This document shows positions 41,432 through 58,618 of a stretch of DNA of 64,000 nucleotides, in pieces. Position numbers and translations under genes: made by a program. The stretch is from Roseicyclus sp. (GTDB lineage Bacteria; Pseudomonadota; Alphaproteobacteria; Rhodobacterales; Rhodobacteraceae), in the NCBI RefSeq assembly GCF_018402035.1, contig NZ_JAGYJN010000001.1:620001-684000 (forward strand), in the 5' to 3' direction. Within the stretch, counting starts at the first letter, position 1. Every line of letters starts with the position of its first letter. A model generated the notes under the pieces. It saw only the letters and a program-made list of their open reading frames with translations. It made no database searches and was not told the DNA's origin.

Positions 41432-41955
41432 CCCTCGGGCGGCCTTAACGCGGAACCAGCGCGCGCATGCGAGCCCACCGAGCGTTGCACATTGCGCATA
41501 AAGGCGCGCGCCAATGTTGCGGCGCTGACACCCGCTGCCACCTTCGCTACGATGCGCGCAGGCTATCAGCTAAGTTGGCCTTGCAATTTATGCAACCTAG
41601 CAAGCCCCATATGCGGCGCGCTGCATAAATAGTGAGTGCCAGAGCGCCCCAATAAAGCAGCGGTGACTTGCGGCCATACGACTGTTGCAAAAAATTTCAG
41701 CAAACAACAAACAACAAAACGACATAAAATATCTTATGATAGAAGTTTTGACCCTAAATTTCGTTTATTAAATCTGATATTATATCCCATTGTGATACCA
41801 AAATACGCCGAAGCAGAGCTTCGCTGGGGATCACAATTGCTAGATGCAGCCGCTTTTTGCTACCAAAACTTCTGGAAATCGTCCAAAGAAAAAGCGAACA
41901 TTGCACGCTAGGCTGTTCCCCTGCGGTTTCATTACCGCATATCAATTGGTGTATT
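41432..41955. other. Long non-coding A+T-rich spacer
   Basis: This 524-bp region lies between marR and the next gene. It becomes very A+T-rich from 41640 on. It contains the near-palindrome TATGCGGCGCGCTGCATA near 41611-41628 and a small hairpin TGCGGT-N6-ACCGCA at 41922-41939. The 91-residue ORF at 41636 shows no family features, so it is not called. The region probably holds promoters for the downstream group. Confidence 0.4.
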
Positions 41956-42246
41956 TTGGGCAATCAACTTTTAAAGGCGGTCAGCCGATTGCGGGCGACG
42001 CTTCTCGAGATGGAGGCAGACCTCGGGTTAACGACTTTGACCGAGGCCGAAAAGACTGTGCTTGCCGCAGCCGTGCTTGCAGCCGACCACGATGGGATCT
42101 TCGAAATCAGCGTATTGCAAAGCCAGTCAATGGTTGCGCAGATGTCCCACAGTACCTTTTTTCGTGTGATCCGCACCCTCGGAGAGAAGGGGCTCATCTA
42201 TCGCATGACGGACGAGAAGCGCTCCTTGTACCGTCTCAAGGCATAG
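41956..42246 (+). CDS. Small winged-helix regulator
   Basis: This is a protein of about 96 residues. LTTLTEAEKTVLAAAVLAADHDGIFEI is followed by a recognition-type helix STFFRVIRTLGEKGLIYRMTDEKRSLYRL, a winged-helix pattern as in MarR-like regulators. The start is uncertain. A TTG at 41956 keeps the helix LLKAVSRLRATLLEMEADLG, while an ATG at 42010 would shorten the protein to 78 residues. The track start at 41857 adds sequence of no clear character. It precedes a membrane gene and the Wzz-like gene, so it may control that envelope group. Confidence 0.55.
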   Translation: MGNQLLKAVSRLRATLLEMEADLGLTTLTEAEKTVLAAAVLAADHDGIFEISVLQSQSMVAQMSHSTFFRVIRTLGEKGLIYRMTDEKRSLYRLKA

Positions 42247-42292
42247 CGTCCGACCACGGGTGCCATCACCGATCTGTTGCGCGGTCGCTGTC

Positions 42293-42844
42293 ATGAAGCT
42301 GACAGACGCGCTGACGCATCTCTTGATCACCGTACTTTTGTCGCTGTGCTATGCGCTGTCTTTCGAGGCCGTCAAAACCCTCTCCAATCCTGTGCAAGCA
42401 TTGCTGGGGCTTGCTAACCCACAGGCGAGCCTTTTGTTCTTCCCGCATGGCGTTCGCGTCGTTGCAGCCTACTTGTTCGGCTGGCGAAGCGTCGCCTACC
42501 TTTTTCCAGTAAAGCTTTGCTACGCGACATGGGTTTTCCCAGAGGCAGAGCTGGCAGCGCAAGCCGTGACCGCGCTGACCGCGCAGATAGGGTGCGTCCT
42601 GGCGTTTGTTTGCATGGCGAAACTCGGCATCATCGCGCGCGACTGGACCTGCGCAATGATGCCTTGGAAAAGCTTGCTTATATGCGGCTGCGCGGCTGCG
42701 GCATTCAACGCGCTCTTCGTTTTCCTACTTTCCAACTACAGCAGCTTCGCAACCGCCAAGCATTTTCTTGGTGATATCGCCGGCCTCGCCTCTGTCATGG
42801 TCATCTTCATGGCAGGCTTTCGCGCTTGGCGCCTTCGGGCTTGA
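42293..42844 (+). CDS. Integral membrane protein with MASE1-like features
   Basis: This is a 183-residue protein with five or six hydrophobic segments and little soluble sequence. LLFFPHGVRVVAAYLFGWRSVAYLFPV resembles the sensor-type MASE1 domain entry, where LP-G-R-x(6)-FGWR-like blocks are common, but no signalling output domain is attached. The ATG at 42293 (MKLTDALTHLLI) is chosen. Function is unknown. It lies between a small regulator and a Wzz-like gene. Confidence 0.55.
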   Translation: MKLTDALTHLLITVLLSLCYALSFEAVKTLSNPVQALLGLANPQASLLFFPHGVRVVAAYLFGWRSVAYLFPVKLCYATWVFPEAELAAQAVTALTAQIGCVLAFVCMAKLGIIARDWTCAMMPWKSLLICGCAAAAFNALFVFLLSNYSSFATAKHFLGDIAGLASVMVIFMAGFRAWRLRA

Positions 42845-42869
42845 CCGAAAAACATATTACTGCCATTTC

Positions 42870-42889
42870 GATACCAAATCGGGGGTATC
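42870..42889. repeat. Inverted repeat GATACC-N8-GGTATC upstream of the Wzz-like gene
   Basis: GATACC and GGTATC flank an 8-base spacer 128 bases before the Wzz-like start, in a strongly A+T-rich spacer. It may be a regulator site. Confidence 0.4.
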
Positions 42890-43017
42890 ATGAGACAAAA
42901 ATATCTCAAAATGCACTGTTTTTTATTATTTTTGTGATATTTGGATCTCTGGCTTCAACTATCAGTTATGTAGTTTTGATTCTATCTTCCCTGCAATATT
43001 GATGCGGATGTGACACC

Positions 43018-44469
43018 ATGAAAGATGGCATTGCCAATGATCAGCCCTCAGCAATGGATGATGAGATTGATCTCAGCCATCTCGCCCGAACCATTTGGCG
43101 CGGGCGCGGTGTGATCATTGCCACGGTTTTGGCCTCGGTACTGCTTGTGTCAGCTTACGCAATCTTTGATCAATATAGAAAATCTTCGGTTAAATTTGTT
43201 CAATCTTTCGTTTCGCTCAGCGGGATCGTCGATCAGCAATACCCCAACGGATCATCATTCTCGCCATCTGACCTCGTGTCCGAGGAAGTGCTGTCCGAGG
43301 TGATCACCTCGCTTGATTTGCAGGGTGTCAGCGCAGATGCATTGCGGCGCGCTGTTACGGTCCAATTTGGCCACCCTGATACAAACCAAATTCGTATGGA
43401 GTGGCAGGCAACAATTCAAGCTGCTGTCGATCAAAATGCAAGCGCGGCTGAATTAACTGAGATTAACACCCGCTATTCGGACCGGCTTGCAAGATTGAAT
43501 ACCACCTCTGTGTCGATACAGGTGAACTTTGCGCTGTTAAACCTTGATAGCGGTGCGGCGATCATTATTGCTGAGGCTATTCCAGCCGCATGGCAAAAGG
43601 TATTTGTTGAAGTCTATAGCTTTACAGCACCGCCAGAACTTATTCCAGTCAGTGGTCTTTCCCCACCGCGCGATCTATCAACGACACGCAGCCTATTGGA
43701 AGCGCAGCAGTTTCTTGTCGCCGTGAAGCAGATTGCTACCGTCGCGAGCGATGATCCGCGGTTGTCATCGTTGCGCGCTAAAGGGGGTATTAATACCGCA
43801 GAGCTACAGTTCCAAATTGAACGGTTTAATTCATTCTATCTGAACCCGTTGTTGAGTGGTTCAGTGCAAAGCGACGATAGCTTTGCTGCCGTTCGGCTGC
43901 AGCAGTTGCGGCGTGAGCGCTCTCGGATCGCCTCCCTCCAAGACGCGACGAATGCTAGAATTGACCAGTTGGCCAGCCTGCGCGGCAGAGGTGCATCGGA
44001 TAGCGGGTTTATGCCAAATGGGGGAGAGAGGAATAGCACGATGCTATCGCTTGATAATAGCGGATTGGCGTCTGTTATCGATCTTGCACAACAAGCTCAG
44101 CTCAACCAATATGTGATACTTCTGTTTGAGCGCACTTGGGAACTTACAGAGCAGCTTGCGGAGGTGGACTTTCAAATTGCGCAGCTCACGAGCGAGTCTT
44201 ACTCGGGCCTAGATGTGACCGACGAAGCAGAGGTTGCTTTCGCCAACTTATCCCAGCAAATTGAAGCCTTGTTCTCTCGTCTTATGGATGAAGAAATCCA
44301 AGGGATAGGTGTTCTTTACGCCACCCAAGTCCCCCCGCAAGTGTACTCAAACTGGGAACAAACCTCGCAACGGTTTTCGCTGCTTTTTGCGCTGGCCATC
44401 GTTCTTGGGGTGATGCTGGGGTCGGCTACCGTTTTGATCAGAGGTTCAATCGCAAGATCTACCCAGTGA
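43018..44469 (+). CDS. Wzz-like chain-length-determinant membrane protein
   Basis: This is a 483-residue protein. One N-terminal helix (about residues 35-54, GVIIATVLASVLLVSAYAIF) and one C-terminal helix (about 455-475, LLFALAIVLGVMLGSATVLI) flank a long coiled, mostly periplasmic domain. This is the Wzz/BcsE-like co-polymerase topology used in polysaccharide export and chain-length control. No kinase domain is present, so it is not a full Wzc. The next gene, 27 bases downstream, encodes an LptA-like protein. Confidence in the topology is higher than in the exact role. Confidence 0.7.
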   Translation: MKDGIANDQPSAMDDEIDLSHLARTIWRGRGVIIATVLASVLLVSAYAIFDQYRKSSVKFVQSFVSLSGIVDQQYPNGSSFSPSDLVSEEVLSEVITSLDLQGVSADALRRAVTVQFGHPDTNQIRMEWQATIQAAVDQNASAAELTEINTRYSDRLARLNTTSVSIQVNFALLNLDSGAAIIIAEAIPAAWQKVFVEVYSFTAPPELIPVSGLSPPRDLSTTRSLLEAQQFLVAVKQIATVASDDPRLSSLRAKGGINTAELQFQIERFNSFYLNPLLSGSVQSDDSFAAVRLQQLRRERSRIASLQDATNARIDQLASLRGRGASDSGFMPNGGERNSTMLSLDNSGLASVIDLAQQAQLNQYVILLFERTWELTEQLAEVDFQIAQLTSESYSGLDVTDEAEVAFANLSQQIEALFSRLMDEEIQGIGVLYATQVPPQVYSNWEQTSQRFSLLFALAIVLGVMLGSATVLIRGSIARSTQ

Positions 44470-44496
44470 AAGATCACTCGTATCTGAATTGAGGCG

Positions 44497-45045
44497 ATGG
44501 TGGTACACGACGGATCAGATGCGAGCAAAGCGGTTCAGCTCAATAAGTGCGCCCTTATTGCATCTGTTTTGTGCTGTGCGCTTTCGGTTGCGCCCTCTGC
44601 AACGCTCGCACAAAACGAAGCACAATCGCAACTCGATGGCGATCAAGAAAACTTACCAATAGAAATTCAATCACACATTCTTGAATTCTTTCGATCCCAA
44701 AATGTCGCGACATTCAAAGGCGCTGTGGTAGCACAGCAAGGGGCGTTGATGATCACCGCCGAAACGCTGATCTTGCACTTTTCTGGCTCTGCAGATGGAC
44801 AGAGGTTGAACGAGATCTTCGGTGAAGGTGGCGTATCAATATCACAAGGTGAGGGCACCGCCAAAGGCGCGGCACTGCATTATCCGCTCGATAGTGGCTT
44901 TGCAACATTATCGGGCGATGTTGAAGTGCGTGAAGGGCCATCCACTTTCACGGGTGATCGAGCGACCTTTAACGTCGAAACAGGCAACAGCGTCCTTGAA
45001 GGATCGGTGAAGGCAATTTTTGTCCCGGATGCGCGCATCCCATAG
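44497..45045 (+). CDS. Stand-alone LptA/OstA-like periplasmic protein
   Basis: This is a 182-residue exported protein. A signal peptide (ALIASVLCCALSVAPSATLA) precedes a beta-jellyroll-like repeat pattern: FKGAVVAQQGALMITAETLIL, FGEGGVSISQGEGTAKGAALHY, LSGDVEVREGPSTFTGDRATFNVETG. This is the OstA/LptA pattern of LPS transport bridge proteins. GAGG precedes the ATG. It is separate from the lptF/lptG genes and is paired with the Wzz-like gene, so it may serve another lipid-linked glycan route, or it could be the genome's LptA. Confidence 0.72.
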   Translation: MVVHDGSDASKAVQLNKCALIASVLCCALSVAPSATLAQNEAQSQLDGDQENLPIEIQSHILEFFRSQNVATFKGAVVAQQGALMITAETLILHFSGSADGQRLNEIFGEGGVSISQGEGTAKGAALHYPLDSGFATLSGDVEVREGPSTFTGDRATFNVETGNSVLEGSVKAIFVPDARIP

Positions 45046-51302: not shown

Positions 51303-52433
51303 TTGGGGCGATATGATCGCTATATTCTGTCCCAGCTTGTCGTGCTGTTTGGCTTTTTCAGCCTCGTCTTGATCTCGGTCTATTGGATCAACGAGGCCGT
51401 AGACCTGTTCGATTCGCTGATTGCCGATGGCCAGAATTTGCGCGTCTTTCTGGAATTCACCGCGCTGACCTTGCCGCAGATCATGATGATGGTGCTGCCG
51501 GTCGCGGGGTTTGTGGCCACGCTTTACATCTTCAACCGGTTGATCGGCGAAAGCGAATTGGTGGTGCTACAGACCGCGGGGCTATCGGCGGTGCGGCTGT
51601 TGCGCCCGGTCTTGCTTTTTGGGCTGCTGCTTGGGCTTTTGATCGCAGTCTTGGGCAATGTCCTTGCACCTGCCGCGCGGGGGCAGTTCAACGACCGCAG
51701 CGCCGATGTGCAGGCCGATCTGACGGGGCGTTTCTTGCGCGAGGGGCAGTTTATCCACCCTGCCCCCGGCCTCAGCGTCTATGCACGCGAAATCACCGAT
51801 CAGGGCGAGTTTCGCGATATGTTCCTACAAGATCGGATCGATCCGGCGGCAGAGACGACCTACACCGCGCCGCGCGCGCTGTTGCTCGAGGCGGACACCG
51901 GCCCACAGCTGGTGATGTTCGATGGTATGGCGCAGACCTATGACTTTGCCACCGGGCGGCTGACCACGGTGCTTTTTGATGATTTCACCTATGATCTGGG
52001 CGCGCTTGTCGCAGAGCAAGCAAGCGCCGGAACAGAATTGCGCGCGCTATCCACATGGGTCTTGATCGGCGCGGATGCTGAGCTTGCCGCCGCCTTGGGC
52101 CTGTCGCTGGCGCAGATGCGCTTTGTCGGCCATGACCGGATCGCGCGGGCGCTTTTCGTGATCTTCCCGCCCCTGATCGCGGCGGCCTGTTTGATGCTGG
52201 GTGGCTTTTCGCGCTTTGGGGTCTGGCCGCAGATCATGCTGGCCGTGATCTTGGTCATCCCCTTGCAAATGGTGTGGAACGCCGCCGAGGCGAATGCGAT
52301 CCGCAATGTCGATTTGCAGCTTTTGGCCTATGCACAGCCGATTTTGGCGGCAGCCTTGGCCGGGGTCTTGACGCTTTTGGCGATGGCGCGCAAACGCAGA
52401 CGCCGCGCGCCGATCGGGGCGGGTGCGGCATGA
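51303..52433 (+). CDS. lptF: LPS export permease LptF
   Basis: This is a 376-residue inner-membrane subunit of the LptB2FG exporter that extracts LPS for transport. LGRYDRYILSQLVVLFGFFSLVLISVYW forms the first helix. A periplasmic jellyroll and three C-terminal helices follow. No ATG fits. The TTG at 51303, preceded by GGAGGGG at good spacing, gives the usual GRYDRY start. The track ORF runs far upstream in antisense of pepA and is not used there. The stop overlaps lptG as ATGA. Confidence 0.93.
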   Translation: MGRYDRYILSQLVVLFGFFSLVLISVYWINEAVDLFDSLIADGQNLRVFLEFTALTLPQIMMMVLPVAGFVATLYIFNRLIGESELVVLQTAGLSAVRLLRPVLLFGLLLGLLIAVLGNVLAPAARGQFNDRSADVQADLTGRFLREGQFIHPAPGLSVYAREITDQGEFRDMFLQDRIDPAAETTYTAPRALLLEADTGPQLVMFDGMAQTYDFATGRLTTVLFDDFTYDLGALVAEQASAGTELRALSTWVLIGADAELAAALGLSLAQMRFVGHDRIARALFVIFPPLIAAACLMLGGFSRFGVWPQIMLAVILVIPLQMVWNAAEANAIRNVDLQLLAYAQPILAAALAGVLTLLAMARKRRRRAPIGAGAA

Positions 52434-53524
52434 TCTTGCATCTTTACATCGCGCGGCGATTCTTGCGCGCCTTGGGCATCGTGACGGCGGTTTTCATCGC
52501 TATTCTCTTGCCCATCGATCTGGCCGAACAATTGCGCCGGATTGGGCCAGAACTTGGCTTTGGGCCGGTCTTTGAACTGGCCATGCTGAACCTGCCCCGA
52601 ACGCTCTATCAGTTGGTGCCGCTATTCGTGCTTCTGGCGACATTGCTGCTTTTTTTGGGGCTGGCGCGTAGTTCGGAATTGGTGGTGATCCGCGCCTCGG
52701 GCCGCTCGGCGCTGCGCGCGGTCGCCTCGCCGATGATCGTGGCGGCGGGCTTTGGCGCCATGGCCGTGGCGGTGCTGAACCCCATCGTGGCCACCACCTC
52801 GCAGCAATATGACATGAAAACCGCCCAGTATCGCGGTGCCGAGGAACGCACGGTTTCGATCACTGCCGAAGGGCTATGGCTACGCCAAGGCAGCGCGACC
52901 GAGCAGACCGTCATCCGCGCAGGCGCCACCAATGCCGATGGCACACATCTTTTCGATGTCAGCTTTTTCCAATTCGCCCCCGATGGCACGATCACGGGCC
53001 GCATCAACGCCGCCGAGGCGCGGCTGATGGACGGGGAATGGGCCTTGCGCGATGCGCGCCAATGGACCTTGGCAGGCACACCCAACCCAGAGGCGAGCGT
53101 GACGGTCACAGCGGAATATGCGCTGCCCTCCACGCTGACGCGCGACCAGATCCGCGATAGCTTTGGCAAGCCCGAAACCGTGCCGATCTATCAGCTTCCC
53201 GGCTTTATCGGGCAACTTAACCAAGCGGGATTCGCCGCATTGCAACATCGTGTCTGGTTGCAGATGGAGCTTTCCAGCCCGCTGATGCTGGCCGCGATGG
53301 TGCTGATCGCGGCGGGGTTGAGCATGCGCCATACCCGGTCGGGCAAAACCGGCATCTTGGTCTTGGCCGCGATCTTGCTTGGCTTTAGCCTGTTTTTCCT
53401 GCGCTCTTTTGCAGAGGTCTTGGGCGAGAACGGGCAATTGCCCGTCGCCATCGTGGCATGGACACCGCCGCTGGCCGCGATTTTGCTGGCCGTGGGGCTG
53501 ATTTTGCATACCGAGGATGGCTAG
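52430..53524 (+). CDS. lptG: LPS export permease LptG
   Basis: This is a 364-residue partner of LptF. The N-terminal helix is MILHLYIARRFLRALGIVTAVFIAILLPIDL, and LARSSELVVIRASGRSALRA lies between helices, as in YjgP/YjgQ proteins. The C-terminal helices end near residue 360. In many alphaproteobacteria lptD follows, but here only 111 bases separate lptG from surA. Confidence 0.94.
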   Translation: MILHLYIARRFLRALGIVTAVFIAILLPIDLAEQLRRIGPELGFGPVFELAMLNLPRTLYQLVPLFVLLATLLLFLGLARSSELVVIRASGRSALRAVASPMIVAAGFGAMAVAVLNPIVATTSQQYDMKTAQYRGAEERTVSITAEGLWLRQGSATEQTVIRAGATNADGTHLFDVSFFQFAPDGTITGRINAAEARLMDGEWALRDARQWTLAGTPNPEASVTVTAEYALPSTLTRDQIRDSFGKPETVPIYQLPGFIGQLNQAGFAALQHRVWLQMELSSPLMLAAMVLIAAGLSMRHTRSGKTGILVLAAILLGFSLFFLRSFAEVLGENGQLPVAIVAWTPPLAAILLAVGLILHTEDG

Positions 53525-53635
53525 GCCGATGCACAGCCATCCACACATGCGGTTGCCTTCGCGCAAGAGGCAGTCCAAAAGAAGGGGCAAAGCCGCGATG
53601 AACGCATTCCACGAGCATAACGGAACAAAGACGCG

Positions 53636-54868
53636 ATGAACAAACGCCCGACATTCACGGTCCGCCGCGTTTTGCGCGCCCTGGCTTTGACTTTGCCCTT
53701 GGGCCTTGCGCTGGGTCAGCCCGCGCAAGCGCAATCACCCTTTTCAGCCGCAGCGCATGTCAATGACGCCATCGTCACCTATTACGAGATCGACCAGCGC
53801 GCGTTGTTCTTGGAGGTGATCCGCACCCCCGGCGATTTGCGCGCCGTGGCGCTCGAGTCCTTGGTCAATGAGCGCCTCCAAATGGCCGAGGCGCGCCGCC
53901 TCGAGGTTGTGGCCAGCGAGCAAGAGATTGCCACAGGCATCGCCGAGTTCGCCGCCCGCGCCGAGTTGAGCGCCGAGGACTTCATTGCTGCCATCGGCCA
54001 AGAAGGTGTCGCGCCCGAAACCTTCCGCGATTTCATGGCCAACAATATTTCATGGCGCAATGTGGTGCAGACGCGGTTTGGCGCCCGCGCCCGCGCCGCA
54101 ACAAGCGATGCAGCCGTGGCCCGCGCGCTTGCCCATGATCCCCAGCTTGGCAGCGGCCAGATCTTGCTGGCCGAGGTGATCGTGCCGGTCACGCCCGAGA
54201 ACCGCGAAACCCTGCGCGATGATCTGGCACAGTTGGCCGTTGATCTGAATTTCGAGATCGATCTGTTCACCGAGGCTGCACGCCGCTTTTCGGCCGCCCC
54301 CACGCGTGAACAGGGCGGTCTGACCGGATGGCGCGCGCTTGATAGCATCCCTGCACAGCTGCGCGAGGATATGGTGTTGCTGTCGGTGGGCGAGACTTAT
54401 GGCCCAGTGGTCTTGGGCCCGGCAATCGGGATTTTCCAACTCCGTGGCCTGTCGCAAGGCAGCTTTCGCGCACCTGCCACCGCTTCGGTCGATTATGCGA
54501 CGCTCAGCTTGCCCGCGCTTGGGTCCGAGGCGGGCCAAGCCGCACTCGCCGCGCTGCGCGCCGAGATCGATCAATGCAATGATCTCTACGCGCTACGCCC
54601 CGGTGCTTTTGTGCGCCAGGATCAACCGCTTTCGGCCATTCCCAATGATATCGCCATGGTGCTGTCGACCCTCGATACGGGCGAGATCGGCGTCACGACC
54701 GCCCCTGACGGCATGGTAACAGCGGTGATCTTGTGCGCGCGCACCATCACCCCGCCCGAGGGCGGGATCGAGGCGGTGCGCCAACGGCTATTCGCCGCCC
54801 AGCTTGAAGCCAATGCCGCCGCATTGCTGGAAGAGCTGCGCGCCGACGCCATCATTACCTTCGACTAA
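53636..54868 (+). CDS. surA: SurA-type periplasmic peptidyl-prolyl isomerase/chaperone
   Basis: This is a 410-residue protein with a signal peptide (about residues 1-32, ending AQPAQAQ-like) and the SurA N-terminal domain (HVNDAIVTYYEIDQRALFLEV, ESLVNERLQMAEARRLEV). A parvulin-type domain lies about residues 170-280. It helps outer-membrane proteins such as LptD fold. The context after lptG and before pdxA fits the conserved order. The isomerase domain looks less conserved than the chaperone part. Confidence 0.88.
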   Translation: MNKRPTFTVRRVLRALALTLPLGLALGQPAQAQSPFSAAAHVNDAIVTYYEIDQRALFLEVIRTPGDLRAVALESLVNERLQMAEARRLEVVASEQEIATGIAEFAARAELSAEDFIAAIGQEGVAPETFRDFMANNISWRNVVQTRFGARARAATSDAAVARALAHDPQLGSGQILLAEVIVPVTPENRETLRDDLAQLAVDLNFEIDLFTEAARRFSAAPTREQGGLTGWRALDSIPAQLREDMVLLSVGETYGPVVLGPAIGIFQLRGLSQGSFRAPATASVDYATLSLPALGSEAGQAALAALRAEIDQCNDLYALRPGAFVRQDQPLSAIPNDIAMVLSTLDTGEIGVTTAPDGMVTAVILCARTITPPEGGIEAVRQRLFAAQLEANAAALLEELRADAIITFD

Positions 54869-54869
54869 G

Positions 54870-55850
54870 ATGACGCGCCCCGCCCCGATCGCTGTCAGCA
54901 TCGGTGAGCCCGCCGGGATCGGCCCCGAGATCGCGGTCAAGGCTTGGCAACGCTTGGGCGCGCGCCTGCCGTTTTTTGTGATCGGTGATCTGACGCATCT
55001 GGCGGGTTTTGGTGCCCATCCCGTACCTATCGCGCGGCCCCAAGATGCCGCCCATGCCGCCCTCAGCGGCCTGCCGGTACTCTCCCACCCTTTTGCCGCG
55101 CCCGCCGTCGCGGGCCAACCCGCCCCCGAAAACGCCGCTGGCGTGATTGCGGCCATCGCGCGCGGTGTCGATCTGGTGATGCGTGGCGAGGCATCGGCGC
55201 TCACCACGCTGCCGATCCACAAAAAAGCGCTCAAAGATGGGGCCGGTTTCCGCTTTCCGGGTCATACCGAGTATCTGGCCCATCTGGCCGGTGTCGAGAC
55301 CGTGGTGATGATGTTGGCCTGCCCCGCGCTGCGCGTCGTGCCCGCCACGATCCATATTCCGCTTTCCGAGGTGCCAGCGGCGCTGAATGCTGGGCTTTTG
55401 ACCGATACGATCCGCATCACCGATGCAGCACTTCGCCGCGATTTCGGCATTGCGCGCCCCCGCATCGCCATCGCCGGGCTAAACCCGCATGCGGGTGAAG
55501 GTGGCACGATGGGCCGCGAAGAGGACGATTTGATCACCCCCGTCATTGCCGCGCTGCGCGCCGAGGGGCTGACCCTGTCAGGTCCACATTCGGCCGACAC
55601 CATGTTTCACGCAGGCGCGCGTGCGCAGTATGACGCGGCCATCGCCATGTATCACGATCAAGCGCTGATCCCGATCAAGACCATCGATTTCGCGGGTGGG
55701 GTGAATGTGACGCTCGGGCTGCCCTTTATCCGCACATCACCCGATCACGGCACGGCCTTCGATATCGCGGGAACGGGTCGGGCCGATCCAACCAGCTTTA
55801 TCGCGGCACTCGAAATGGCCGCACTCATGGCGCAGGCACGCGGCAACTAA
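54870..55850 (+). CDS. pdxA: 4-hydroxythreonine-4-phosphate dehydrogenase
   Basis: This is a 326-residue enzyme of pyridoxal phosphate synthesis. SIGEPAGIGPEIAVKAW opens the protein. Metal His residues are visible in FPGHTEYLAHL and MYHDQALIPIKT, and RTSPDHGTAFDIAGTG is the C-terminal signature. It starts two bases after the surA stop. The often following rsmA gene is not present here. Confidence 0.96.
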   Translation: MTRPAPIAVSIGEPAGIGPEIAVKAWQRLGARLPFFVIGDLTHLAGFGAHPVPIARPQDAAHAALSGLPVLSHPFAAPAVAGQPAPENAAGVIAAIARGVDLVMRGEASALTTLPIHKKALKDGAGFRFPGHTEYLAHLAGVETVVMMLACPALRVVPATIHIPLSEVPAALNAGLLTDTIRITDAALRRDFGIARPRIAIAGLNPHAGEGGTMGREEDDLITPVIAALRAEGLTLSGPHSADTMFHAGARAQYDAAIAMYHDQALIPIKTIDFAGGVNVTLGLPFIRTSPDHGTAFDIAGTGRADPTSFIAALEMAALMAQARGN

Positions 55851-55894: not shown

Positions 55895-56212
55895 CTATGT
55901 CGCGCAGCGGCGGCAAAACGGGGTATAGGGCAAAAGATCAAGCCGCTTTTCGGTGATCTTGGCACCGCATTGCACGCAAATGCCGTAGTCGCCCCGATCC
56001 ATCCGAACCAAGGCGGCGCGGATGCGCGCGATCTCGGCCTCGCCCGATTGGCCCAGTTTCTCAAGCACCTCGTCGCCCTCGCGTTCGGTGGCCAGCTCTT
56101 CCCAATCCTTGGATTGATGGCTGTCCAACTCGGCATCAAGCGCGCGCAGGCGCGCGTCCAACACCGCCAAGCGGCCTTCGAGTTCTGCGCGGCGCGCGGC
56201 CAAATCCTTCAT
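55895..56212 (-). CDS. DksA/TraR-type zinc-finger protein
   Basis: This is a 105-residue short protein. A coiled N-terminal region (RRAELEGRLAVLDARLRALDAEL) precedes ALVRMDRGDYGICVQCGAKI and a second pair in TPFCRRCAT, a four-Cys zinc finger. It lacks the long coiled coil of full DksA, so an RNA polymerase role is possible but not certain. It is convergent with pdxA. Confidence 0.88.
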   Translation of the reverse strand: MKDLAARRAELEGRLAVLDARLRALDAELDSHQSKDWEELATEREGDEVLEKLGQSGEAEIARIRAALVRMDRGDYGICVQCGAKITEKRLDLLPYTPFCRRCAT

Positions 56213-56804: not shown

Positions 56805-57680
56805 TTGGCACGGCTCACGCCGGTCGCACAGGGTATCTTGCTGATGCTGGGGGCGATCTTTTTGTTCTCGGCGATGGATGCGACCGCCAAGATGCTGATG
56901 GCGCGCTATGATCCGATCCAAGTGGTCTGGGCGCGCTACGCCGGCATGATGGCGGTGGTGGCCTTGGTCCTTGCCCCGCGCCTTGGCCCGCTTTTGCGCA
57001 CGCGCCATATCGGGCTGCAACTGCTGCGCTCTGCCTTTCTTTTTGCCGCGACCTACACGTTCTTCACCGCGATCAGCCGGATGGATATCGCCGCCGCGAC
57101 AGCGGTGATGCAGGTCCATCCGATGCTGTTGATGCTGGGGGCGGCAATCGTGCTGCGCGAGGGGTTGGGGCCAAGGCGTATCTTCGGCATCATGGCCGCG
57201 CTGATCGGCGCGCTGATCGTGATCCGCCCGGGATCAGAGGTTTTCACCTTGACCGCGCTCTTGCCACTTTTGGGCGGGCTGTTTTACGCCAGCTATGCGC
57301 TGACCACCCGGTTCTTGGGCCGCGATGAGCCGATCCTGACCTCGTTTCTCTATACCGCGATCATCGGCACAGTTGTGGCCAGCATGTTGAGCGTGCCGGT
57401 TTGGCAAACGCCCAGCGCGGACGATTGGGGGGTATTTCTCGCTTTGGGGGCCATCGGTGCCACCGGTCAGTTCTTGCTCATCCGCGCGCTGACCATTGCC
57501 GAGGCAGGCGCGGTCGCCCCTTTCAGCTATGCGGGCGTGATCTTTGCCACCTGCTGGGGCTATTTCGTCTTTGGCGAATTGCCCGATGCGCTAAGCTTGC
57601 TTGGCGCGCTTGTGATCGTGGGGGCCGGGGTTTATGTCTGGTACCGCGAAACCCGCACAAGTGCCGCAAAACCGGCCTGA
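56805..57680 (+). CDS. EamA-family (DMT) transporter
   Basis: This is a 291-residue ten-helix membrane protein. GAIFLFSAMDATAKMLMARYDPIQVVWARYAG is the first repeat start, and PFSYAGVIFATCWGYFVFGELPDALSLLGALVIVGAG is the second repeat end. No ATG precedes the first helix in a suitable place. The TTG at 56805, six bases after the previous stop, is used. The exported substrate is unknown. Confidence 0.88.
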   Translation: MARLTPVAQGILLMLGAIFLFSAMDATAKMLMARYDPIQVVWARYAGMMAVVALVLAPRLGPLLRTRHIGLQLLRSAFLFAATYTFFTAISRMDIAAATAVMQVHPMLLMLGAAIVLREGLGPRRIFGIMAALIGALIVIRPGSEVFTLTALLPLLGGLFYASYALTTRFLGRDEPILTSFLYTAIIGTVVASMLSVPVWQTPSADDWGVFLALGAIGATGQFLLIRALTIAEAGAVAPFSYAGVIFATCWGYFVFGELPDALSLLGALVIVGAGVYVWYRETRTSAAKPA

Positions 57681-57715
57681 GCCTCCGCGACAGGCTGACA
57701 ACCCCGAAGGATCGC

Positions 57716-58618
57716 ATGGCTAAACCCCGCCGCCTCTGGCTTGACTGGACGGTTGATCGCGCATTGCGCGGCCTGCTGTGGGTTGCGCTGCGCCTGCCCT
57801 ATGCTTGGCGGGTGCCGCTGATGGGGGGCATGTTGCGCGCTTTGGGGGGCATCGCCGGTTACCGCGCGCGCGCCGATGAACAGTTGGCTTGGATTTTCCC
57901 GACACTGACGCCCGCGGCGCGGCGCAAGATCACCGCGGCGGTGCTTGATAACTTTGGGCGGGTGGTGATCGAGAATTACTCCACCGCCGACCAGCTTGCA
58001 CGGGCTGAGCGCTGGGTGCCCCATGGGCCGGGGCTAGAAGCTTGCGAGGCCGCGCGCGCCGCGAACCGGCCAATCCTGTTCGTCTCGGGGCATTTTGGCA
58101 ATTACCAAGCGGCCCGCGCGGCGATGAATGTGCGCGGCTACGCCATGGGCGGGCTTTACCGGCTGATGAACAACCCTTTTTCTAACGCCCGCTACATCGC
58201 CTCGGTCGAGGGGGTTGGCGGGGCGGCCTTTCCGCGCGACCGGCGCGGCTTGGCGGGCTTTGTCAAAACCCTGCGCGAGGGAGGGCAAGGGGCGATCTTG
58301 ATCGACCAATATGTCGCCCAAGGCGCGCTTTTGGACTTTCTCGGCCAACTTGCGCCCACGGCACTCTCGGCTGCTGAAATGGCGCTGAAATATGATGCGC
58401 TTTTGGTGCCGATTTATGCCGAGCGGTTGGAGAACGGGCTCGATTTCGATGTCGTGATCGAGGCACCGATCCCCCATAGCGATGCGTCGCGCATGACCCA
58501 AGCGCTCAATGACAGCTTGGCCGCGCGGGTGCGCGCGCGCCCTGAGCAATGGCTGTGGATACATCGCCGCTGGAAACCGCACCGGGTGAAGGCCTATCAC
58601 CTACCGCCCGAGGTCTAG
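57716..58618 (+). CDS. Lysophospholipid/lipid A acyltransferase (LpxL/HtrB family)
   Basis: This is a 300-residue membrane-associated acyltransferase. FVSGHFGNYQAARAAM carries the HxxxxD/E-type region (His present). FPRDRRGLAGFVKTLREGGQGAILIDQYVAQGA and LWIHRRWKPH are family blocks. It probably adds a secondary acyl chain to lipid A. The ATG at 57716 with GAAGGA upstream is used. It follows the EamA gene after 35 bases. Confidence 0.88.
   Translation: MAKPRRLWLDWTVDRALRGLLWVALRLPYAWRVPLMGGMLRALGGIAGYRARADEQLAWIFPTLTPAARRKITAAVLDNFGRVVIENYSTADQLARAERWVPHGPGLEACEAARAANRPILFVSGHFGNYQAARAAMNVRGYAMGGLYRLMNNPFSNARYIASVEGVGGAAFPRDRRGLAGFVKTLREGGQGAILIDQYVAQGALLDFLGQLAPTALSAAEMALKYDALLVPIYAERLENGLDFDVVIEAPIPHSDASRMTQALNDSLAARVRARPEQWLWIHRRWKPHRVKAYHLPPEV

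Follow-up and report, generated by a model that had tools for sequence, protein, structure and literature searches.

The window, the 64,000-nucleotide stretch C1:620001-684000 of a Roseicyclus genome (G000; a 3.03-Mb MAG in 89 contigs, 92% complete), contains the following features around lptG and surA.

51315-52433, plus strand: lptF, coding part as read (Pfam LptF/LptG, 191 bits), its 3' end overlapped by lptG
52424-53524, plus strand: lptG, intact, upstream of the gap (PF03739, 214 bits; ORF list)
53541-53562, plus strand: eroded remnant, the last ~8 codons of a deleted type I lptD (alignment to G001)
53563-53635, plus strand: former lptD-surA intergenic leader, kept upstream of surA (aligns to the leader of type I genomes)
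53636-54868, plus strand: surA (PF13624/PF00639), present in all relatives of the genus
54867-55850, plus strand: pdxA (PF04166, 350 bits)
55895-56212, minus strand: DksA-like gene, at the place of rsmA in other genera (PF21173/PF01258; synteny)
57680-58618, plus strand: lipid A acyltransferase, LpxL-type (PF03279, 132 bits)

Only 111 bp separate the end of lptG (53524) from the start of surA (53636), and the ORF list places no gene inside. The coordinates and the Pfam assignments of the neighbors agree with the initial annotation, which reported no lptD between lptG and surA. That annotation also held that no remnant was left. We found instead that the gap still contains the old lptD-surA leader and, from the lptD 3' end, about 22 bp. 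The lptD gene of same-genus G001 ends in cacacgcgcagttgccttcgctga (HTRSCLR*); the counterpart in the window is cacacatgcggttgccttcgc, which has lost the stop codon, and the window sequence aligned to the G001 lptD end reads, from 53542 on, cacacatgcggttgccttcgcgca. The local alignment of the gap to the G001 lptD 3' end plus leader scored 63, and the best of 500 shuffles scored 30. The gaps of G007 and G009 matched likewise (scores of 76 and 57), and those of G002, G006, and G008 matched G005 with scores of 120 to 159, with more of the surA leader included. Because the final ~8 codons of the old gene survive in the gap, we concluded that lptD was deleted in place. Separately, lptD_I matches recorded at lptG-surA were rejected as an artifact of an over-extended, out-of-frame ORF start, for which the true start was found.

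We read the same region in 28 genomes. In the genus, lptG and surA are joined without lptD in G000, G007, G009, G002, G006, and G008, and lptD is kept between them in G001, G003, G004, G005, G010, G011, and G012. Outside the genus list, lptD is missing from this position in G023, G336, and G221 and kept in G129, G231, and others. The losses in {G002, G006} and in G336 are independent. One could argue that, since the MAG is fragmented (89 contigs), a true lptD between lptG and surA is hidden by an assembly error or a local deletion. However, G007 and G009 have the same layout as the window with a closely similar gap sequence, lptD is absent there in G002 and in G006, a single-contig genome, and an aligned, eroded lptD remnant lies inside the gap. 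With these independent genomes, one a closed chromosome, a misassembly that hides an lptD at the locus is excluded for practical purposes. As a side observation, G023 (L079; 98% complete) has tens of codons of the lptD 3' end left in its lptG-surA gap; its lptE is intact, and we found no LptD of either type in it.

The initial annotation had also reported rsmA missing after pdxA, and the DksA-like gene on the minus strand does occupy that place. This arrangement after pdxA is genus-wide. In the 28-genome reading, rsmA does not follow pdxA in any readable genus member or in the nearest outgroup, G023, and most other genera retain it there. We found an intact rsmA elsewhere in the genome (C34:30349-31119; 230.9 bits versus a cut-off of 171). 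The proposal that both genes had moved therefore held for rsmA and failed for lptD, where the old gene was deleted and an LptD of another clade is found instead. The lptD gap occurs in some genus members and the rsmA gap in all that are readable; rsmA moved in its own genus-wide event, and, as judged from these gene orders, the two absences are unrelated, separate events.

A genome-wide search returned a single LptD, which is not the old gene relocated. It lies at C25:3-1526, on a 5.25-kb contig, and is cut by the contig end (508 residues). We call the resident gene type I and the surviving one type II. PF04453 (cut-off, 22.4 bits) scored 22.5 to 25.2 in G000, 46.0 in G007, and 33.5 in G009 and fell below the cut-off for the L188 copy and for a copy on a Marivivens plasmid. 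In the complete genome G006, the LptD escaped PF04453 and was found with a type II sequence profile, so we did not trust a Pfam-only absence of LptD. No LptD was found in G008 (73% complete).

We compared the LptD tree with a species tree built from pepA, lptF, lptG, surA, pdxA, an ABC-F gene, and marC. In the species tree, the type II clades branch from among type I genomes: {G000, G007, G009} stand beside type I G001 (support of 100), and {G002, G006} stand beside type I G005 (support of 93). In the LptD tree, type II forms one clade (support of 100) far from the type I clade of the genus, and the two types from the same family are 27 to 35% identical. The simplest account would be that the resident lptD merely relocated and diverged, with no foreign gene involved. 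The two types do share a fold family, and the type II sequences of the genus fall in one clade. Yet a tree that unites type I and type II LptD of the genus in a single clade was rejected (AU test, P = 3.6e-41), type II groups with the copies of G336, G221, G162, and the Marivivens plasmid, the old site is a deletion with a 3' remnant, and both types coexist in G162. Relocation is thus refuted unless the model badly misplaces fast-evolving rows, and we consider it very improbable. By its placement in the tree, the surviving LptD is a member of a distant clade and not the relocated old gene. Within the genus, two gains of type II are indistinguishable from one gain followed by later sorting. We also noted that the type II copy of G162 (L127:306-2645), adjoining a fructose-bisphosphatase gene, has two in-frame TGA codons and shares 86% identity with the plasmid-borne Marivivens gene; the same genome also has an intact type I lptD.

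LptE is considered to plug LptD and to be required for its folding. In type I genomes, lptE lies between leuS and holA, and it was kept in 11 of 11. The leuS-holA gap that holds it is 474 bp in all readable type I genus members, 465 to 489 bp in other genomes that keep lptE, and 462 bp in G181. Without lptE, the gap shrinks to 33 bp in G000 and G009, 51 bp in G002, G006, and G008, and 10 bp in G336; holA was not found in the G007 assembly. PF04390 detects LptE in every type I genome tested, and a whole-genome search with it found no LptE anywhere in G000, G002, G006, G009, or G336. The absence in G000 rests on an incomplete MAG and is backed by better genomes, among them G006, which is lptE-less and consists of a single contig, a complete chromosome. 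Thus, lptE was cleanly deleted in five of the six readable genomes that have only type II LptD, a link that comprises few lineages and one exception. These losses map to at least three distinct type II branches. G221 is the exception: it retains lptE beside a sole type II LptD, so the loss of lptE is not obligatory. The initial annotation had offered, as its alternative to movement, that the outer membrane export route differs. This is nearer the truth, because the outer membrane translocon belongs to a different type and lptE has been lost as well.

We next consider the predicted structure of type II LptD. The alignment shows ~58 to 66 extra residues near the C terminus, which are lacking in all 22 type I rows; the insertion is present in G221 too. 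The fold was tested on the G009 homolog, which has an N-terminal LptA-like domain and a large barrel, as the G000 copy is truncated. In the models, nine strands follow residue 643 in type II (G009; pLDDT of 73), and five follow residue 613 in type I (G005; pLDDT of 75). By our own count on these models, which are middling (pLDDT of 73 to 75, pTM of ~0.6, fewer than 30 sequences), the type II barrel is suggested to have ~30 strands versus 26 in type I. Both models match LptD best, and the top Foldseek matches for the G009 homolog were all LptD (E value, 3.5e-26). Superposed on LptD cores, the type I model fits at 4 to 5 Å (TM score up to 0.74), and the type II model fits at ~10 Å (TM score of ~0.55). 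The conserved cysteine pairs able to form the disulfides of LptD (C165, C168, C756, and C796) are found in G009 and G007; the truncated G000 copy shows the N-terminal pair only. From the models, the larger predicted barrel may be linked to LptE independence.

The translocon could instead still be two-part if some LptE-like lipoprotein that Pfam does not recognize is encoded elsewhere and acts as a substitute. Among Lpt proteins, LptE is conserved least (PMC10353723), a larger predicted barrel would seem to require a plug, and the LptD structures that our models matched are mostly LptD-LptE complexes. PF04390, however, was blank in the five type II genomes and positive in all type I genomes tested, and no lipobox ORF adjoins type II lptD by a strict home-made filter, in a search where a poorly conserved lipoprotein encoded far from lptD could be missed. 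We regard a substitute as somewhat unlikely and infer that type II LptD is independent of any LptE-like partner.

Type II lptD is found mostly among polysaccharide genes. The G000 and G009 genes adjoin a Wzy_C O-antigen ligase/polymerase gene and have a glycosyltransferase gene nearby, and in G007, the context is a glycosyltransferase gene and a Wzz gene. A Wzy_C-type gene is directly upstream in G336 and L188, and a weak Wzy_C match adjoins the G221 gene. The G002 and G006 genes have a thioredoxin-like gene and cytochrome c maturation genes nearby, and in G002 an aminotransferase gene as well. The copy on plasmid NZ_CP018573.1 of Marivivens sp. JLT3646 resembles these in belonging to the same type II clade and differs in being plasmid-borne. 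It sits inside an O-antigen cluster with an O-antigen ligase, an MraY-family glycosyltransferase, RfaH, kdsB, a Kdo transferase, and lptC. We observed that lptC, kdsB, and a Kdo transferase gene adjoin type II lptD on the plasmid (L220:6389-13626), so that part of an LPS export and core gene set is plasmid-encoded.

At 41857-45045, the window has an island of low GC (51 to 52% versus 60% for the window) with the following genes.

41857-42246, plus strand: small HTH-like protein, at the island start (blastp E value of 4e-14, 34% over 89 aa versus a Marivivens plasmid gene)
42260-42844, plus strand: membrane protein (blastp E value of 8e-13 versus a Marivivens plasmid gene)
43018-44469, plus strand: Wzz-type chain length determinant (PF02706, 26.3 bits, above the cut-off; GC 51%)
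44497-45045, plus strand: second LptA-like protein (PF03968, 47.8 bits; cut-off, 20.4)

On the plasmid, type II lptD is followed directly by the genes for the homologs of the HTH-like and membrane proteins. The second LptA-like protein is 36% identical to the main LptA of the genome (C23). The island is absent from the corresponding place in G009. It suggests that such clusters can carry LptA as well.

In G000, lpxC lies on C78, lptC-lptA lie on C23, and lptF and lptG are in the window. LPS is presumably made in this genome, since lpxC and lptC-lptA are present, and the LpxL-type acyltransferase gene in the window is a sign of lipid A synthesis. As the sole LptD beside lpxC and lptACFG, type II LptD would be the protein that carries LPS. 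Its position inside polysaccharide clusters might mean that it exports another glycolipid or polysaccharide and that LPS is surfaced otherwise or not made. We consider this improbable: lpxC, lptA, lptC, lptF, and lptG are kept, type II is the only LptD, and G274, a genome without lpxC, is also without lptG, lptD, or lptE matches, unlike the type II genomes. As an observation in its own right, both G274 (L183; 99% complete) and G181 (97%), which are Rhodobacteraceae, gave no LpxC, LptD, or LptG match, and G274 additionally has neither lptE nor LptA. Both genomes may represent LPS-free bacteria in a family that normally makes LPS.

Read from the genome sequences, these results demonstrate a deletion of lptD in place, a surviving LptD of a distant clade, and a clean loss of lptE, with lpxC and the other lpt genes present and type II lptD in polysaccharide and plasmid contexts. 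They are probably best explained if LptD-LptE was repeatedly displaced by an LptD that is carried horizontally and acts without LptE. According to this model, the ancestor would have had lptF-lptG-lptD-surA-pdxA and leuS-lptE-holA. A lineage would then have gained type II LptD, which travels with O-antigen or exopolysaccharide clusters and, in one case or more, on a plasmid. The newcomer would have coexisted with the resident pair and then taken over, after which an in-place deletion would have removed the resident lptD down to its last codons (53541-53562), and lptE would have been lost from between leuS and holA. Type II LptD would take LPS from LptA and, with no need of LptE, insert it into the outer membrane. 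A stage-like series, though not one lineage, would be formed by G162 (both types), G221 (type II plus lptE), and the rest (type II alone). The fuller proposal is possible, and we hold it tentatively: that type II translocates LPS on its own, independently of LptE, has an enlarged barrel of ~30 strands, has spread by way of plasmids and O-antigen clusters, and has repeatedly taken the place of the essential LptD-LptE pair in Rhodobacteraceae.

Compared with LptD of the LptDE translocon (PF04453; Escherichia coli and relatives, e.g., PDB 4q35 and 5iv9), type II shares the best fold matches, the Pfam match, the N-terminal domain with a large barrel, and the two N-terminal and two C-terminal cysteines. 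It differs in its extra C-terminal residues, its predicted ~30 strands, its gene position, and the lack of an LptE match in five of six type II genomes. LPS export without LptE has a parallel in Neisseria meningitidis, where LptE is dispensable for LPS transport (Bos and Tommassen 2011, cited in PMC7204523); Neisseria retains lptE, which affects LptD levels, whereas in type II genomes the gene is deleted. Borrelia burgdorferi also has an Lpt-like system, with an LptD-like protein and no recognized LptE ortholog (PMC10353723), but it makes no LPS and its LptD lacks the cysteines, unlike the type II genomes with lpxC and cysteines. In the limited literature that we searched, we found no report of such a displacement or of an LptE-less LptD in alphaproteobacteria.

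The type II gate appears to do the LPS export job alone in this marine alphaproteobacterium. Here, an essential machine part is exchanged by riding in surface-polysaccharide clusters. In the best-studied bacteria, neither LptD nor LptE is dispensable, and the LptD-LptE pair serves as a target for antibiotics. The loss and replacement of this pair several times among close relatives provides matched genomes with and without LptE, and in harmless marine isolates, the purpose of LptE, a long-standing question, and the ability of LPS export to proceed in its absence therefore become directly testable.
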